A stretch of 64,000 nt of DNA, taken from NCBI GenBank assembly GCA_026129865.1, contig JAHCHG010000003.1:186001-250000 (forward strand), read 5' to 3'. The notes beneath the pieces were generated by a model. That model was not told the DNA's origin. It made no database searches and saw only the letters and a list, made by a program, of their open reading frames with translations. A program made the position numbers and the translations under genes. Position 1 is the first letter of the stretch, and every line of letters starts with the position of its first letter. This document shows, piece after piece, positions 1,080 to 60,923 of this stretch. Origin of the DNA: Pyrinomonadaceae bacterium (GTDB lineage Bacteria > Acidobacteriota > Blastocatellia > Pyrinomonadales > Pyrinomonadaceae).

Positions 1080-1679
1080 TTAATTATTCTTTGCTTCAAA
1101 TTCCGCCGGTGCTTCGAGGGCATGAGTTTGCGTTTCGCCGCGTGCTTTTTTTTCTGCCAAAAACTTGTTAAATTCGTCCGAACGACCGCGCGGAACGCTC
1201 AGCGTTTTCCACGCTTTGGAACGAAAATGTTTTGCCAGAAACGTGATCTGTCCGATGTGATATGCGTAATGAGTCAGTTGCCGGTTGATCGCTTCGCAGA
1301 TAGAATGCGGTTCGCCGCGAATCGCCACGGTTTTCGAAAAATCCTCAGATTTTAACGGCTCGATCGCGTTGAAAAGTGTTTGCCACCCTTCTTCCCATCG
1401 TTCCATTAACGACGCCCGCGTTTCATCCATCAACTCAAATTCGGTGTCGCGTTTTCGATCCGCTTTCTCGCCGTCGCTTGTTAAAAAATCGGTCCAGCGC
1501 GAACGAAGATTTCCCGCAATATGTTTTACGATAACGGCGATCGAATTCGCCTCTTCGTCGAGCGCGCGAAAAAATTCCTCATCGGAAACCTGCGCCATCG
1601 CCTTTTCCGCCATCGATTTATAATTGCGGAACGATTTAATCGAATCCGAAAGATAATTTTCAATAATTTCTGAAGTCAT
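1080..1679 (-). CDS. DinB-like / DUF1572 family protein
   Basis: A 199-residue cytoplasmic helical protein. The pattern of three spaced histidines, H53 (VKHIAGN), H137 and H141 (LTHYAYHIGQ), is the divalent-metal triad typical of the DinB/YfiT four-helix bundle. DUF1572 members have the same SRW.DFL segment after the first His. Members are often thiol-dependent S-transferases or of unknown activity, so the substrate cannot be named. The gene stands alone between the isocitrate dehydrogenase terminator and the kelch gene on the same strand, 8 nt from the latter's stop codon, so it is probably transcribed from the kelch side. The start ATG at 1679 is preceded by AAGGGAACAA, a usable ribosome binding site. 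Confidence 0.8.
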   Translation of the reverse strand: MTSEIIENYLSDSIKSFRNYKSMAEKAMAQVSDEEFFRALDEEANSIAVIVKHIAGNLRSRWTDFLTSDGEKADRKRDTEFELMDETRASLMERWEEGWQTLFNAIEPLKSEDFSKTVAIRGEPHSICEAINRQLTHYAYHIGQITFLAKHFRSKAWKTLSVPRGRSDEFNKFLAEKKARGETQTHALEAPAEFEAKNN

Positions 1680-1687
1680 TTGTTCCC

Positions 1688-2812
1688 TTAGATCTTAAAT
1701 ATCCAAGCCTGATCGGTACTTGTCGGTTCACCGCTTGCGATAAATTCGTATCCGCCGATTATCAAAACGCGCCCATCCGTTAGGCGTGTTGCCGACGAAT
1801 AATGAAGCGATTTGCGGACAGCGCCGGAAACGGTTGAAAATGAGAGCGTTTTCGGGTCGAATATTTCCGCCGAGGCGCTGCCGCCGGCGATCAAAACCAT
1901 TCCGTTTTCAAGCAAAACGGAAGTCGAACCGATCTTGAACCGCGGAGACAGCATGTCTTTCGTTTTCGTAAAAGTCTGTTTCGCGGGATCAAAGATCTCG
2001 GCGCTTTTCAATTTGCCGCGAAAGTCGCGGTGGTCCGAACCGCCTGTTACGAGTACTTTTCCGTCGCCCAACAAGATCGAGTCATGCTTATATCGCGCGT
2101 CGCTCATTTTTGCTTTCAGCACGGAGAAACTGTTTGTTTCGGGCGAAAAGATCTCCGCCGCCGCAGTCGTCTCGCCGCGGCGAATTTCGCCGCCGGTAAA
2201 AAGGATCTTTCCGTTTTTTAGCAAGGTCGCGGAATGCACATTTATCGGAGTTGAAAGTCTTCCGACCGTTGTGAATGAATCGGTTTTCGGGTCGAAAATC
2301 TCAGCAGTATCCAGAATTCTTTCACCGTCAAAGCCGCCTGCGATCAAAACTTTTCCGTTGCCCAAAAGCGTTGCCGAATGTCCCGACCGTCGAAACGAAA
2401 GATCGCCGACCTTTTGAAATGTTTTCGTTTCGGGCATAAATATTTCCGCCGTCTTTTCAGGATTTGAGCCCGAAGACCAACCGCCTGCGATCAACACACG
2501 ACCGTCCGGCAATAAGGTCGCGGTATGGCTGACGCGTTTTTTCGATAATTTAGAATCGATCTTTTCAAAGCGATCTTCGGACGGAATAAAGAGCGCCGCA
2601 TCATCGATTAGAACGCCGTCGCGTTCCATGCCGCCGGCAACCAGAACGGTGCCGTCGCGCAGCAAAGTAGCGGAATGCGCGGCGCGCGCCTTGCTTAGCG
2701 AAGCGATCCCGGTCAAGTTTTGCGAGATGTTATCCGTAACGAGTGATTGTCCCCCGCAGGCGGTCGTCAAAATCGAAACGAAAAAAGCAACTATCAGGAA
2801 TTGAACTTTCAT
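1688..2812 (-). CDS. Kelch-repeat lipoprotein
   Basis: The start is taken at the ATG at 2812, not at the upstream in-frame start at 2878, because AGGAG (2821-2825) precedes it and the protein then opens with a lipoprotein signal (MKVQFLIVAFFVSILTTACGG, Cys at about residue 19). The rest is about seven kelch-type blades, each with the pattern HSATLL.DG.VLIAGG followed by A.IFDP.T..F. It should form an extracytoplasmic beta-propeller anchored to a membrane by lipid. Such propellers usually bind partners or carbohydrates. There is no galactose-oxidase copper domain, so an enzymatic role is not supported. The secreted hydrolase gene lies upstream on the same strand. Confidence 0.8.
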   Translation of the reverse strand: MKVQFLIVAFFVSILTTACGGQSLVTDNISQNLTGIASLSKARAAHSATLLRDGTVLVAGGMERDGVLIDDAALFIPSEDRFEKIDSKLSKKRVSHTATLLPDGRVLIAGGWSSGSNPEKTAEIFMPETKTFQKVGDLSFRRSGHSATLLGNGKVLIAGGFDGERILDTAEIFDPKTDSFTTVGRLSTPINVHSATLLKNGKILFTGGEIRRGETTAAAEIFSPETNSFSVLKAKMSDARYKHDSILLGDGKVLVTGGSDHRDFRGKLKSAEIFDPAKQTFTKTKDMLSPRFKIGSTSVLLENGMVLIAGGSASAEIFDPKTLSFSTVSGAVRKSLHYSSATRLTDGRVLIIGGYEFIASGEPTSTDQAWIFKI

Positions 2813-47064: not shown

Positions 47065-49365
47065 ATGGCAATTGCAGCAAAAAAAACAGATACAAAAAAA
47101 TCCGCGGCAAAAAAGAGTTTAGAAAAAGACAAACCGGGCAAATTAAAAACCGTCAAAGCGTCGAAAGCTTCGCAAGCCGACGGCACCTCGAGCTCGGCGA
47201 AGCCGCGAAAAACTGCCAAGACGACAGCCTCAAAAGCGGTAAAAAACAATAAAAGAACAAAATCGAACAAGGACCATCAGGGTTTCGACAAAAAAGCGCT
47301 CGTCGATATTTATCGGAATATGTATCTTTCGCGCCGGATCGACGATAAAGAGATCCAGTTGAAAGGTCAGAACAAGATCTTCTTCCAGATATCGGGCGCG
47401 GGTCACGAAGCTTTTTTAACCGCCGCGGGTTTGGCGTTAAAGCCCGGATACGATTGGTTTTTCCCGTACTATCGCGACCGCGCTTTGATGCTGCAGCTCG
47501 GCATGACGGCGCAGGAAATGCTTTATTCCGCAGTCGGCGCTGAAAAAGATCCGAATTCGCACGGTCGGCAAATGCCTTCGCATTGGGGACACAAAGATTT
47601 AAATGTTCCGTCGCAATCAAGCTGTACCGGCTCACAGGCTCTGCACGCGGTCGGAGCCGCTGAAGCGAGCTATCGCGCATCGCTTGTTGAAGAATTGCGG
47701 GACAAAATCACCGGTTTTAAAGGCGATGAAGTTGTTTATATGTCGATCGGTGACGGAACTTCGAGCGAAGGCGAATGGTGGGAAGCGCTGAACACTGCTT
47801 CAAATTTAAAACTTCCGGTAATATTTGTCGTCGAAGATAACGGTTACGCGATCTCGACGCCGGTTGAGGTCGGCGTTGCAGGCGGCGATATCGCGGCGCT
47901 TGTTTCGGGTTTTCCGGATCTTTTCATTCAGAAATGCGACGGCACAGACCCGCTCGAAAGCTACGAAACGATGAAAAAGGCGGTCGAATATTGCCGCGAG
48001 CGAAAAGGTCCTGCGTTTGTCCATACAAAAGTGATCCGCCCGTATTCGCATTCTTTGTCGGACGATGAAAAGCTTTATCGACCGGAAGAAGAACGTCAAA
48101 AAGACGCCGAACGCGATCCCATTAAAACATTTGCCGAATTTCTGATGACCGAAGGAATCGCGTCGTCGGAAGACCTCGAATCGCTCCGAAAATCGGTCGA
48201 TAAAGAAGTTAACGAAGCCGCGGATATCGCCGTTGAAACGCCGCAGCCGGCGCCGGAAACTGCGCTCAGAAACGTTTATTCGCCCGATGTCGATCCGACA
48301 TCGAAGGAATTTGACACAGAGGACGGTGCGGAACTTTCGGGAAATGCGGGAACGATGGTCGATCTGATAAACCGCTGCCTTCATGACGAAATGGCGCGCG
48401 ATCCCCGCATTGTCGTTTTCGGCGAAGACGTTGCAGATGTTTCGCGCGAAGAATATCTCGATCTGGTAAAAGGCAAAGGCGGAGTTTTCAAGGTAACGGC
48501 AAATTTGCAGAGGGAGTTTGGTTCGGCGCGTGTTTTCAATTCGCCGCTTGCGGAAGCAAACATCGTCGGTCGCGCCGTCGGGCTTGCATTGCGCGGCATC
48601 AAACCGGTCGTCGAAATTCAATTTTTCGATTATATTTTCCCGGCATTTCACCAGATCAGAAATGAAGTTGCCGTAACGCGCTGGCGGTCGGACGGCGAAA
48701 CCAAATGCCCGTTGGTCATAAGAGTTCCGGTCGGCGGTTATCTAAAGGGCGGAGCGGTTTATCATTCGCAATCCGGGACAACACTTTTTGCGCACACGCC
48801 CGGGCTTCGCATCGTTTATCCGTCAAATGCCCTCGACGCCAACGGGCTTTTGCGGACTTCGATTCGCTGCGACGATCCGGTTATGTTCCTCGAACATAAG
48901 CATTTATACCGTCAGGTTTATAATAAATCGCAGTATCCGTCTTCGGAATTTATGATCCCGTTCGGCAAGGCGAAAACGATTCGCGAAGGTTCCGATGTTA
49001 CGATCGTAACCTTCGGCGCTCTGGTTCACCGTTCGAATGAAGCTGCAAAACGGCTTGAAAAAGACGGTGTTTCGGTAGAAATTATCGACCTTCGTACGCT
49101 CGTTCCGTACGATTGGGAAGCGATCGCCGAAAGTGTAAAACGGACGAACCGCGTTATCGTCGCGCATGAAGATTCGATATCATACGGCTACGGCGCTGAG
49201 ATCGCGGCGCGGATCTCGGACGAATTGTTCGAATATCTCGACGCTCCGGTTAGAAGAGTCGGTGCGACGGATACTTTCGTCGGGTACGCGCCTCAGCTCG
49301 AAGATTTTATCCTTCCGCAGGTCGAAGATGTCGAAGAAGCTCTGCGAGAATTGATGAAATATTAG
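47065..49365 (+). CDS. Fused branched-chain 2-oxoacid dehydrogenase E1 (alpha-beta)
   Basis: A 766-residue thiamine-diphosphate enzyme joining both E1 chains. Residues 1-70 are a Lys/Ala/Ser-rich, apparently disordered tail ([18 protein letters not shown]). E1-alpha runs to about 400, with the TPP motif [17 protein letters not shown]...VEDN and HVH-like segment [18 protein letters not shown]1-beta starts near [32 protein letters not shown] and ends with [24 protein letters not shown]. It decarboxylates branched-chain 2-oxoacids in the dehydrogenase complex. E2 and E3 genes are not in the window. Its stop codon is 7 nt from an inverted-repeat element. Confidence 0.9.
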
Positions 49366-49372
49366 AAGGTCT

Positions 49373-49619
49373 CTCAAAAATCGGATAAAAGCCGCGTGAG
49401 CGGCACATTGATTTTAGCCATGGAATTCATTCCACGGTCAGGGTGGAGCGAACGATCACGTCGCGTCAGCGACAATTGAATATTTTCTACAATTTTCAGT
49501 CGTCGCTGACGCGACGCTGAACCTTTTATTAAATTACCTTTTATTAAATTACCGTGGAATGAATTCCACGGCTAAATTCATTTTATCGCTACGCGATTAA
49601 ATGCTCTGCGATTTTTGAG
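49373..49619. repeat. 247-bp nested inverted-repeat element
   Basis: Outermost pair: CTCAAAAATCG (49373-49383) and CGATTTTTGAG (49609-49619). Next pair: CCATGGAATTCATTCCACGG near 49419-49438 and CCGTGGAATGAATTCCACGG near 49552-49571. Inner pair: GTCGCGTCAGCGAC near 49460 and GTCGCTGACGCGAC near 49502. Inside is a perfect 15-bp tandem duplication (49521-49535 and 49536-49550). The 409-bp gap 49366-49774 holds this element and, after it, no other clear gene. Confidence 0.75.
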
Positions 49620-49774
49620 TTATCTTCTAGATCGATCAAATCATCGCCAAAAGCGCACAGCTCGTTTGAGTCGTGCGCTTTTTAATTTGGATAATCCGCC
49701 AAATTGTTTCGATTCGTCCAAATTTTCCGTTTATAATGTTCGAAATTTTTTGATCCCATTATCTTGCTTTGAAC

Positions 49775-50362
49775 ATGATCGGACCATTCGTCCATAATAT
49801 CGACCCGATAATTTTCTCGATCGGCGGTGTTCATATCTGGTTTTACGGGCTGAGTTTTACGCTCGGGTTTTTGAACGCGCATTTGTTTTTGCGGCGAAAT
49901 CGCGAACGTATCGGACTTTCGCTCTCTAAGGTTTATGAACTGACGCTTTTTCTCGCTGTCGGCGTTTCGATCGGAGGGCGCGCACTCGTAGTTATAAACA
50001 ACGAATGGGATTTTTACCGCGAATATCCAAATACTCTTTTCGGAATGCCGAACGGGCAGGCGTGGAATTTGATGACCGTCGCTCTCGGGATTATCTTGCT
50101 GGCAATTAACCTTTTGCGGTCACGAAAAGTTGCAGATGTTAACGATCAAAAGGCGAAATCAACGAACTCAAATACCGAAAATCCGGGCTGGCGGCGAGCT
50201 GCGCTTTTTGTCGTTTGTCTAATTCCGCTCGTGATTCCGAGCGATGCGACGCGCGATGTTCCGGTCTCATACGGCGAACGGCATCCGGCACTCGAACATT
50301 CCTGGATGTACCCGCCGATCGCGGATCAGCTCGAAAAACACGCTGAAAAGATCGAACATTAA
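49775..50362 (+). CDS. Internally shortened Lgt-like protein
   Basis: A 195-residue membrane protein from the ATG at 49775. DPIIFSIGGVHIWFYGLSFTLGF matches the first membrane helix of prolipoprotein diacylglyceryl transferases, and VGVSIGGRALVVINNEWDFYREYP the second. It then jumps to YPNTLFGMPNGQAWNLMTVALGIILL, which resembles the C-terminal segment of one Lgt subgroup. The HGG and RxGNF catalytic core that should lie between is missing. The tail DVPVSYGERHPALEHSWMYPP is as in that subgroup. A true lgt gene lies at 60120. Probably inactive as a transferase. Its stop codon touches the ATG of the glycosyltransferase gene. Confidence 0.62.
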   Translation: MIGPFVHNIDPIIFSIGGVHIWFYGLSFTLGFLNAHLFLRRNRERIGLSLSKVYELTLFLAVGVSIGGRALVVINNEWDFYREYPNTLFGMPNGQAWNLMTVALGIILLAINLLRSRKVADVNDQKAKSTNSNTENPGWRRAALFVVCLIPLVIPSDATRDVPVSYGERHPALEHSWMYPPIADQLEKHAEKIEH

Positions 50363-51634
50363 ATGCATTTCATAAAGTTTATGAAGGATTCAAACTCAGC
50401 TAACCGGTCCCGTTTTCAATTCTCGCTACGGAGCGAAGCGGCGGTCTTCGTCGCTATTTTGGTCGCCGCGTTCGTTTTGCGCGCCGCGCTTGTCTGGCTG
50501 CAGTGGAATTCGCCGGTTATGAATTTTGGCTTTTTCGGTGCCGATTCAACAGGTTACGACGCGATCGCGCAAAGTCTCGTTTCCGGCGGCGGATTTGCGA
50601 TCGATGGCGAGCCGACGGCGTTTCGAACACCTGTTTACCCGATGTTTCTGGCGGCGGTTTATTCGCTTTTCGGCAGAAATTTTATCGTATTAGGTGTAAT
50701 TCAATCGATCCTCGGGGCGGCGGTTTGTTATTTCACATATAAAACCGCGATCTTGATTTTTGGTCGCGCATCGGCGGTCGCAGCGGCGGTTTTTGTCGCC
50801 TTATCGCCGGATCTGATCATCTGGACATCAGGCTATGTTTTGACTGAGCCGGTCTATATTTTTCTGCTATCGGCTGCAGTTTACGCCGCGGTTAAACTGA
50901 TCGAAGCGGAATCTATAGAGTTGTCGGATAAGAAAAATATAGGATTGGCGGCTTTGACAGGTCTTTTGTTCTCGCTGACGGCGCTGACGCGTCCGGCTTT
51001 TCTATATTTCGCGATCATCGCATTCGTTTTTCTTGCGTTAAAGATCGACAGAAGAAAACTGATCTTGATGATCGCGGTTTTTTTAATACCGGTTTCGATT
51101 TGGACGGTGAGAAATTATGCGGTATTTGACGAAGTGATTCTGACGACGACCGGCGGCGGTTACGTTTTGTATGAATATCATAATCCGATCACGACCTCCG
51201 AAAACGGCGGTTACGATCCGATCGATCATCATCCGCCGCCGCCCGAGGGAGCGACAGCGTCCGAAGCCGACGATTTTTATAAAGCGAAAGCGGTCGAATT
51301 CATTTTGGAAAATCCCGGGCGCGAGATGCGTCTGACGATTAACCGTTTCTGGAATGTCTGGCGTCCGGCGCTTGCGGAATCTTCGCCGCGAAACGCGGTC
51401 ATTACATCGCTTTCATATATTCCCGTCATTCTCTTTGCATTACCCGCGATTCTTATTTTCGGTTTTCGCGATCCGAAAACTAAGTTTCTCGTGATCCTGC
51501 TCGCGTTCTTTTTCGTGTTTCATGTACTGGTCGCGGGCGAAATGAGGTTTCGATATCCTCTAATGCCGGTGTTTTCGATCTTTGCCGCGGCGGCGGCGGT
51601 TGAATTGATTAAAAAGATTAGATCAAACTCCTAG
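50363..51634 (+). CDS. Glycosyltransferase family 39-like membrane protein
   Basis: A 423-residue protein with about 10 membrane helices. The opening loop FGADSTGYDAIAQSLVSGGGFAIDGEPTAFRTPVYPMFLAAVYSLFG is the PMT/ArnT-type extracytoplasmic loop with the acidic pair expected for lipid-linked sugar transfer. Similar enzymes use polyprenyl-phosphate sugars to glycosylate proteins or lipid A. The exact acceptor is unknown. The ATG at 50363 follows the preceding stop codon directly; the ATG at 50381 is an alternative. Its stop codon overlaps that of the convergent DUF5916 gene (CTAG). Confidence 0.8.
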   Translation: MHFIKFMKDSNSANRSRFQFSLRSEAAVFVAILVAAFVLRAALVWLQWNSPVMNFGFFGADSTGYDAIAQSLVSGGGFAIDGEPTAFRTPVYPMFLAAVYSLFGRNFIVLGVIQSILGAAVCYFTYKTAILIFGRASAVAAAVFVALSPDLIIWTSGYVLTEPVYIFLLSAAVYAAVKLIEAESIELSDKKNIGLAALTGLLFSLTALTRPAFLYFAIIAFVFLALKIDRRKLILMIAVFLIPVSIWTVRNYAVFDEVILTTTGGGYVLYEYHNPITTSENGGYDPIDHHPPPPEGATASEADDFYKAKAVEFILENPGREMRLTINRFWNVWRPALAESSPRNAVITSLSYIPVILFALPAILIFGFRDPKTKFLVILLAFFFVFHVLVAGEMRFRYPLMPVFSIFAAAAAVELIKKIRSNS

Positions 51635-60119: not shown

Positions 60120-60923
60120 TCAATTTACCTCGCTTACCTTTTTCGCTTTCAACCTCCAAACCATAAAAACGACCGCAATTACTGCCACAAGCAAGCTGAT
60201 GATCTGCGAGGTCGAAATGCCGAGTGCGCTGGTCAATCCCATCAGATCGCCGCGCGGATCGTCGCGGAAAAATTCGATGGTAAAGCGTATGATCGGATAA
60301 AGGATCATATACGCTATCAAAACCTGACCGTTAAATCGTTTTTTTCGATGAAGATAGATCAAGATGCCGAAAACGATGAGCATTGCGAACGACTCATAAA
60401 GCTGCGTCGGATGAAGAAAAAGATCTTCGCCCGAAGCGCCGTAGATCGGAACACCGGTGTTTTCATGCGCGGCTTCGGTAAAATGAACGCCCCACGGCTG
60501 ATAACACACATCGCCCCAACAGCAGCCCGCGGAAAAGCATCCCTGACGACCGAAAAATTGCCCGATCGCGACGCCCGGCGCAAATGCGTCGGAAACCTTC
60601 CAAAAATTAAGCTTATAAAGCGGTATCAGGATCGCGGCGGCGAGCAGTCCGCCGAGGAAACCGCCGTAATAAACTCCGCCGGAGCGCAGAAAATCGAGCG
60701 AAAAAAGATTTACGTTCGGCTCGGTGAAATACATCAGGATCTTAGAACCGAGCAAACCTCCGATGATCGTCCAAAGCCCGAGGTCGTAAATTCTTTCTTT
60801 CGGCAAACCGTCGCGTCCGGCAAGCTGCGCTGCGGTATAAAGCGCGATCAGCAGACCGACCGCGAGCAAAATTCCGTATGTGTTGATCGGAAAATTTCCG
60901 ATCCTAAATAATTCGGGATACAT
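60120..60923 (-). CDS. lgt: Prolipoprotein diacylglyceryl transferase
   Basis: A 267-residue inner-membrane enzyme that moves diacylglycerol from phosphatidylglycerol to the lipobox Cys of prelipoproteins. Helix 1 has FRIGNFPINTYGILLAVGLL, helix 2 GLWTIIGGLLGSKILMY. The usual HGG motif appears as VYYGGFLGG, with Tyr in place of the His, a variant I have not verified in other genomes. FFGRQGCFSAGCCWG and HPTQLYESFAM fit the Lgt core. It lies just upstream of the nucleotidyltransferase pair and downstream of the GNAT gene. Confidence 0.9.
   Translation of the reverse strand: MYPELFRIGNFPINTYGILLAVGLLIALYTAAQLAGRDGLPKERIYDLGLWTIIGGLLGSKILMYFTEPNVNLFSLDFLRSGGVYYGGFLGGLLAAAILIPLYKLNFWKVSDAFAPGVAIGQFFGRQGCFSAGCCWGDVCYQPWGVHFTEAAHENTGVPIYGASGEDLFLHPTQLYESFAMLIVFGILIYLHRKKRFNGQVLIAYMILYPIIRFTIEFFRDDPRGDLMGLTSALGISTSQIISLLVAVIAVVFMVWRLKAKKVSEVN

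Follow-up and report, generated by a model that had tools for sequence, protein, structure and literature searches.

Why should a gene of the Lgt family keep an open reading frame once the part that carries its catalytic residues has gone? The question is posed by an Lgt-like ORF of 195 codons on the forward strand of the window (the whole stretch of 64,000 nt that was analysed), which runs from an ATG at 49775 to a TAA at 50360-50362 and, as the initial annotation had described, is uninterrupted by internal stop codons.

An Lgt-like paralogue with its catalytic middle gone

The only convincing matches to this ORF in Pfam and NCBIfam were Lgt models, which rules out its belonging to an unrelated family. 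Residues 11-92 matched PF01790 (LGT; E 2e-8), but the match takes in no more than profile positions 1-80 of 240, and on this stretch the ORF passes the curated Pfam cut-off (34.3 bits against 24.9); it falls below the cut-off of the NCBIfam equivalog model lgt, TIGR00544 (38.1 bits against 118.9). The full-length relative in genome G013 is also slightly under the latter threshold, at 112.2 bits, and members from Bryobacterales and Desulfobulbaceae exceed it, at 133.5 and 144.2 bits respectively. When 60 related genomes were searched, the proteins of G013 and G008 (80% and 73% identical to the ORF over residues 1-85) aligned to it in two pieces, comprising query residues 1-85 and then 78-191 or 78-187; the sequence between the two pieces is present in both relatives and absent from the ORF. 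This two-piece match, together with the alignment, bears out the proposed membership of an Lgt subgroup. The N-terminal part of the gene (49775-50017, forward strand) is composed of 81 codons covering TM1 and TM2 as far as WDFY, with 66 of the 81 positions identical to G013, and the C-terminal part (50018-50359, forward strand), identical at 59 of 111 positions, encodes REYP, TM7, an extra helix and a tail extending from SDATRDVP to HSWMYPP.

Alignment with full-length relatives revealed a single large gap, in frame, which measures 136 residues against every one of the 15 members compared. The deleted block corresponds to codons 82-217 in G013 numbering, and 408 nt are missing when the loss is read at the DNA breakpoints in seven of the full-length relatives. 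The large internal in-frame deletion postulated from the ORF is therefore present, but the original estimate of about 150 residues was too high. The count of 15 excludes G090 (a frameshift at a contig end), G062 (a contig edge) and G164 (which has a deletion of its own), as well as four loci that seem to be the same genes as those of G013, G088, G008 and G061, one that seems to be the same as that of G090, and the distant Lgt matches L050 and L060-L062.

Residues were mapped through the match to the E. coli Lgt structure 5azb, in which the chain numbers are one above the published numbering. The equivalents of H103, R143, N146, G154 and R239, at G013 positions 99, 139, 142, 150 and 211, all lie in the deleted block, although R239 falls in the second stretch of the match, which is weak (i-Evalue 0.011). 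The equivalents of Y26 (Y24) and R246 (R218) are kept. According to PMC13251419, E. coli Lgt has an absolute requirement for Y26, H103, R143, N146, G154 and R239; the short form retains only the first of these six, and the HG motif, the GRIGNF signature and the R239 equivalent have gone, in agreement with the suggestion that the catalytic core was removed. H103 and N146 do vary in some Lgt proteins, and E243A is functional in the strain used there (both from PMC13251419). PMC4728403 reports that no H103 mutant complements, that the R239, E243 and R246 mutants tested fail, and R143 is proposed there to be critical for catalysis. In the same paper H103 stands at the beginning of TM3 and R239 within TM6, and hence the lost block spans TM3-TM6. 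Judged from its sequence, the short form is very unlikely to carry out diacylglyceryl transfer, since the core is lost; the product, if made, would keep TM1, TM2, TM7, the extra helix and the tail, and should not be a diacylglyceryl transferase.

Relative to known Lgt proteins (PF01790; E. coli structures 5azb and 5azc), the short form shares the N-terminal 80 of 240 profile positions, the order of elements and, at the junction, an arginine equivalent to R246. It differs in lacking TM3-TM6 with the five residues that these helices carry, and in having an extra C-terminal helix and tail that PF01790 does not include. We therefore regard the ORF as confirmed to be an Lgt-like paralogue with its catalytic middle gone.

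Breakpoints and origin of the deletion

The breakpoints, taken from the codon alignment, coincide with short similar words. G013 carries CGCGAACATC at the 5' site and CGCGAATATC at the 3' site; the second of these is found once in the short gene, forming the deletion junction at 50018-50027 (forward strand), with 5'-type sequence before it and 3'-type sequence after it. CGCGAA-N-ATC is common to both breakpoints in G013, the nearest relative, giving 9 of 10 nt (6 + 3 around one mismatch), and the homology is weaker in the other relatives. Over 15 nt, the two G013 sites match at nine positions, a level equalled by 356 of 37675 same-phase site pairs of that gene (0.94%); those of G088, G008 and G061 match at just eight, which about 3% of site pairs reach. 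At the protein level, the REYP-like words that had been proposed on both sides of the lost segment are similar but not identical, the 5' word in relatives being mostly YRxH-like (YREH, YRDH or YRGH) and the 3' word REYP or RDYP.

These observations support the earlier proposal of recombination between similar short words as a likely cause: a single deletion between two such words, through replication slippage or short-homology end joining, would have removed codons 82-217. An origin by short-homology deletion is thus likely but not strongly proven, because the ancestor of the window gene itself is not at hand. Deletion between short direct repeats is a general process of bacterial gene decay. 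The present case resembles it in the similar words at the breakpoints, the loss of the intervening segment and the redundancy of the gene, and differs from it in being in frame and in having no further lesions.

A sporadic, tail-bearing subfamily and an intact Lgt

Beyond PF01790, the full-length relatives continue into an additional hydrophobic helix at the C-terminus and a tail (for example, helix and tail at about 2300-2493 of locus L033), and of the Pfam and NCBIfam models that matched at E<=0.001 none extends to the end of this region. In G013 the tail, SDATRDIPATYGDRHPGLKHSWMYP, lies outside the LGT domain. The tail residues PS, T, P, RH and YP are invariant in 15 of 15 full-length members and are kept in the short form, which has the same N- and C-terminal sequence as the rest of this subfamily, tail included, and differs from the 15 full-length members aligned in lacking their 136-residue core. 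By eye, no conserved neighbouring genes were seen in the ORF lists of five of the eight loci identified as relatives by a scan of contigs (L043, L045, L046, L048 and L049).

The distribution of the tail-bearing paralogue is sporadic. With G013 as the query (E<=1e-25) it was detected in nine of 119 genomes of the taxonomic family, that of the window included, and when a Bryobacterales member served as the query, 1e-25 was passed by 13 of 396 phylum genomes taken from a larger group; of these 13, three have distant Lgts at 34-36% identity and one is that of the window itself. Among the named carriers are Pyrinomonadaceae, Blastocatellia, other Acidobacteria and Bryobacterales MAGs, and one Desulfobulbaceae MAG. 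In a tree of 16 rows the window gene falls in a clade of five rows with G013, G088, G008 and G061 (support 100/100), the branching order within which the tree does not resolve. The end branch of the window gene is 0.39 long, compared with 0.21-0.24 for G013, G088 and G008; we attribute this to the absence of the core, which is more conserved, although faster change could also account for it.

The search sets of 60, 119 and 396 genomes, which overlap and hold one genome per species, contained no second short form, and no other genome of the window's genus was found. Neither did the scan of contigs (47 stretches, eight relatives, with both search patterns lying within the N-terminal part) yield another; viral contigs gave two stretches and no relative, and plasmids gave no match. 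The short form is consequently not widely conserved among the genomes searched, and the idea that it represents a widespread family of its own was rejected for want of a second example there.

The genome has one other PF01790 gene, an intact single-domain Lgt at 60156-60917 on the reverse strand, with the signature GRQGCFSAGCCWG, a match to profile positions 1-240 (E 9e-58) and no stops. As PF01790 matches were found in 116 of the 119 family genomes, and in all 69 of those of good quality, it appears that the single-domain Lgt serves as the housekeeping copy, with the tail-bearing paralogue as an occasional extra. The presumed housekeeping protein has the motif GR.GCF.AGCCWG in the window copy and in 30 of 30 loci (L071-L100, the 30 best-scoring matches), which by motif gives Cys where the E. 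coli enzyme has N146 and E151. Distant Lgt proteins with C replacements are mentioned in PMC13251419, along with an M. smegmatis N146C homologue presumed there to be of low activity.

A second loss is seen within the subfamily itself. In genus g70 the paralogue is intact in G188 and G429, whilst that of G164 lacks 476 nt relative to both (locus L059, about 1480-1975, reverse strand), shifting the frame; the G188 and G429 sequences at this place read TGGTGGTACGG at the 5' site and ATGGGGTACC at the 3' site. From its sequence this is an independent deletion and, if the assembly is right, a clearly destructive one. Taken with the sporadic occurrence of the subfamily, it points to the paralogue being dispensable. 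The frameshift in G090 is near a contig end and may be a sequencing error. Two further contigs (G103:C63 and G133:C189) each contain one partial Lgt match, to profile positions 1-117 and 1-77 respectively, in open frames of 130 and 109 aa, which may reflect contig edges or truncated genes.

Remnant or retained protein

Our preferred reading, with a probability of about 0.68, is that the ORF is an inactive, recently deleted and non-essential second Lgt whose frame is open by chance. The frame would most likely have survived through the deletion happening to be a multiple of three, and the event would be recent relative to the split from the known relatives; recent loss is favoured because the short form is found in one genome and the gene is redundant. 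What can be set against such a remnant is that the remaining sequence is without decay (an omega of 0.14, and nearly all invariant residues kept), just as a retained protein would appear. Outside the gap, the short form keeps 31 of the 32 residues invariant in the 15 full-length members (17 of 18 in the N-terminal part and 14 of 14 in the C-terminal part), and its identity to G013 in the two parts resembles that of the intact pair G013 and G088 (64/81 and 57/111).

A codon model was fitted to 183 codons in five of the 16 aligned sequences, using two tree shapes. Omega was 0.139 on the window branch against 0.085 elsewhere, which is not significantly different (p 0.41) and is distinguishable from an omega of 1 (p 0.021); the second tree shape gave p values of 0.35 and 0.026 respectively. 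Hence, although the catalytic residues are lost, this low-power model detects no significant relaxation on the window branch. On the intact branches omega was 0.028 for G013 (significantly low, p 0.034), 0.157 for G088 and 0.074 for G008. If the last part of the window branch is allowed to be neutral, the fit is best at a share of 0-0.05 and loses 1.9 log units at 0.5 and 2.35 at full neutrality. The test is weak, because the ingroup branches, with 1.3-1.5 changes per codon, are close to saturation at synonymous sites. Its weakness shows in the intact control G088, which has an omega similar to that of the window gene and tolerates neutrality better, a fully neutral branch costing it only 1.7 log units. 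A neutral share of 0.3 would leave 3.2 expected stops, and none is seen. The sequence thus fits either a recent deletion or a constrained protein and does not separate the two.

Structure prediction provides a rough view of what a product could look like. The AlphaFold2 model of G013, from three rows, has a pLDDT of 48 and serves only as an approximate helix count; at this low confidence, four long helices are predicted in the lost block (90-116, 120-156, 170-191 and 196-217). For the short form (pLDDT 69, pTM 0.58) long helices are predicted at 23-41, 50-76, 94-123 and 138-153, and its best Foldseek match is 5azb (E 0.063, rmsd 12.7), with none of 84 matches reaching E<=0.001. The windows of a Kyte-Doolittle scan overlapped and did not yield a clear number of helices. 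As the number of predicted helices removed is even, topology would be preserved, with both ends left on the sides of the membrane where the full-length protein has them.

These features are what might be expected were the short protein in use, as the initial annotation suggested it may be, and retained as a four-helix membrane protein with a non-catalytic role, such as binding a lipid or a partner. The open frame, the complete set of invariant C-terminal residues, the omega that is not significantly raised, the conserved tail and the parity of the four long helices lost in the models all accord with this, but the short form is confined to one genome, the codon model leaves room for a neutral share as large as about half the branch, the absence of stops bounds that share only to about 0.3, and fold confidence is moderate with a loose match to Lgt; we consider such retention rather unlikely. 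Somewhat less probable still is that it is a new and used, catalytically dead four-helix Lgt derivative that displays the tail and perhaps modulates the intact Lgt or lipoprotein traffic. Alternatively, the frame could be kept only through translational coupling to the gene downstream, an in-frame remnant being tolerated where a frameshift would not be. That gene, at 50363-51634 on the forward strand, resembles a PMT_2-type glycosyltransferase (PF13231, E 3.2e-6), and begins with an ATG immediately after the stop codon of the short gene, in a TAAATG junction at 50360-50365. However, it has another possible ATG at 50381 and is itself sporadic, matching at E<=1e-30 in the window genome and one other of the 119 family genomes, and coupling of this kind seems improbable. 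Least probable is an assembly or sequencing artefact joining two sites of an intact gene. The assembly is in 21 contigs, and the deletion is observed in assembled sequence rather than reads; but the word shared by the two sites is at most about 10 nt in relatives, which usual assembly word lengths exceed, the junction is internal to a contig that is 250 kb long or more, and no full-length copy of the paralogue was found elsewhere in the assembly.

Most likely, then, the locus records an event of an ordinary kind, cleanly preserved: a dispensable gene starting to decay. It offers a clean natural case in which a single step removed the entire catalytic core of an enzyme paralogue, with the frame, the ends and probably the membrane topology staying intact despite that loss. 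It also highlights a subfamily of Lgt whose members have an additional helix and a conserved tail, whilst leaving knowledge of lipoprotein processing unchanged.

Three sigma-70-like matches were detected in 49300-50500, against 1.7 (sd 1.4) expected, which constitutes no evidence for a promoter. A hairpin at 49649-49682 (forward strand), an inverted repeat with 15 nt arms that are 87% complementary, has a T run within its 3' arm and beyond it, and is possibly the terminator of the upstream gene; it was not among the predictions of a terminator scan. Between the short ORF and a putative 2-oxoacid dehydrogenase-like gene is a 267 nt nested palindromic element (49363-49629) with arms of 21, 40 and 26 nt. 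It has partial similarity to three other places in the genome, and looks like a small non-coding repeat element.
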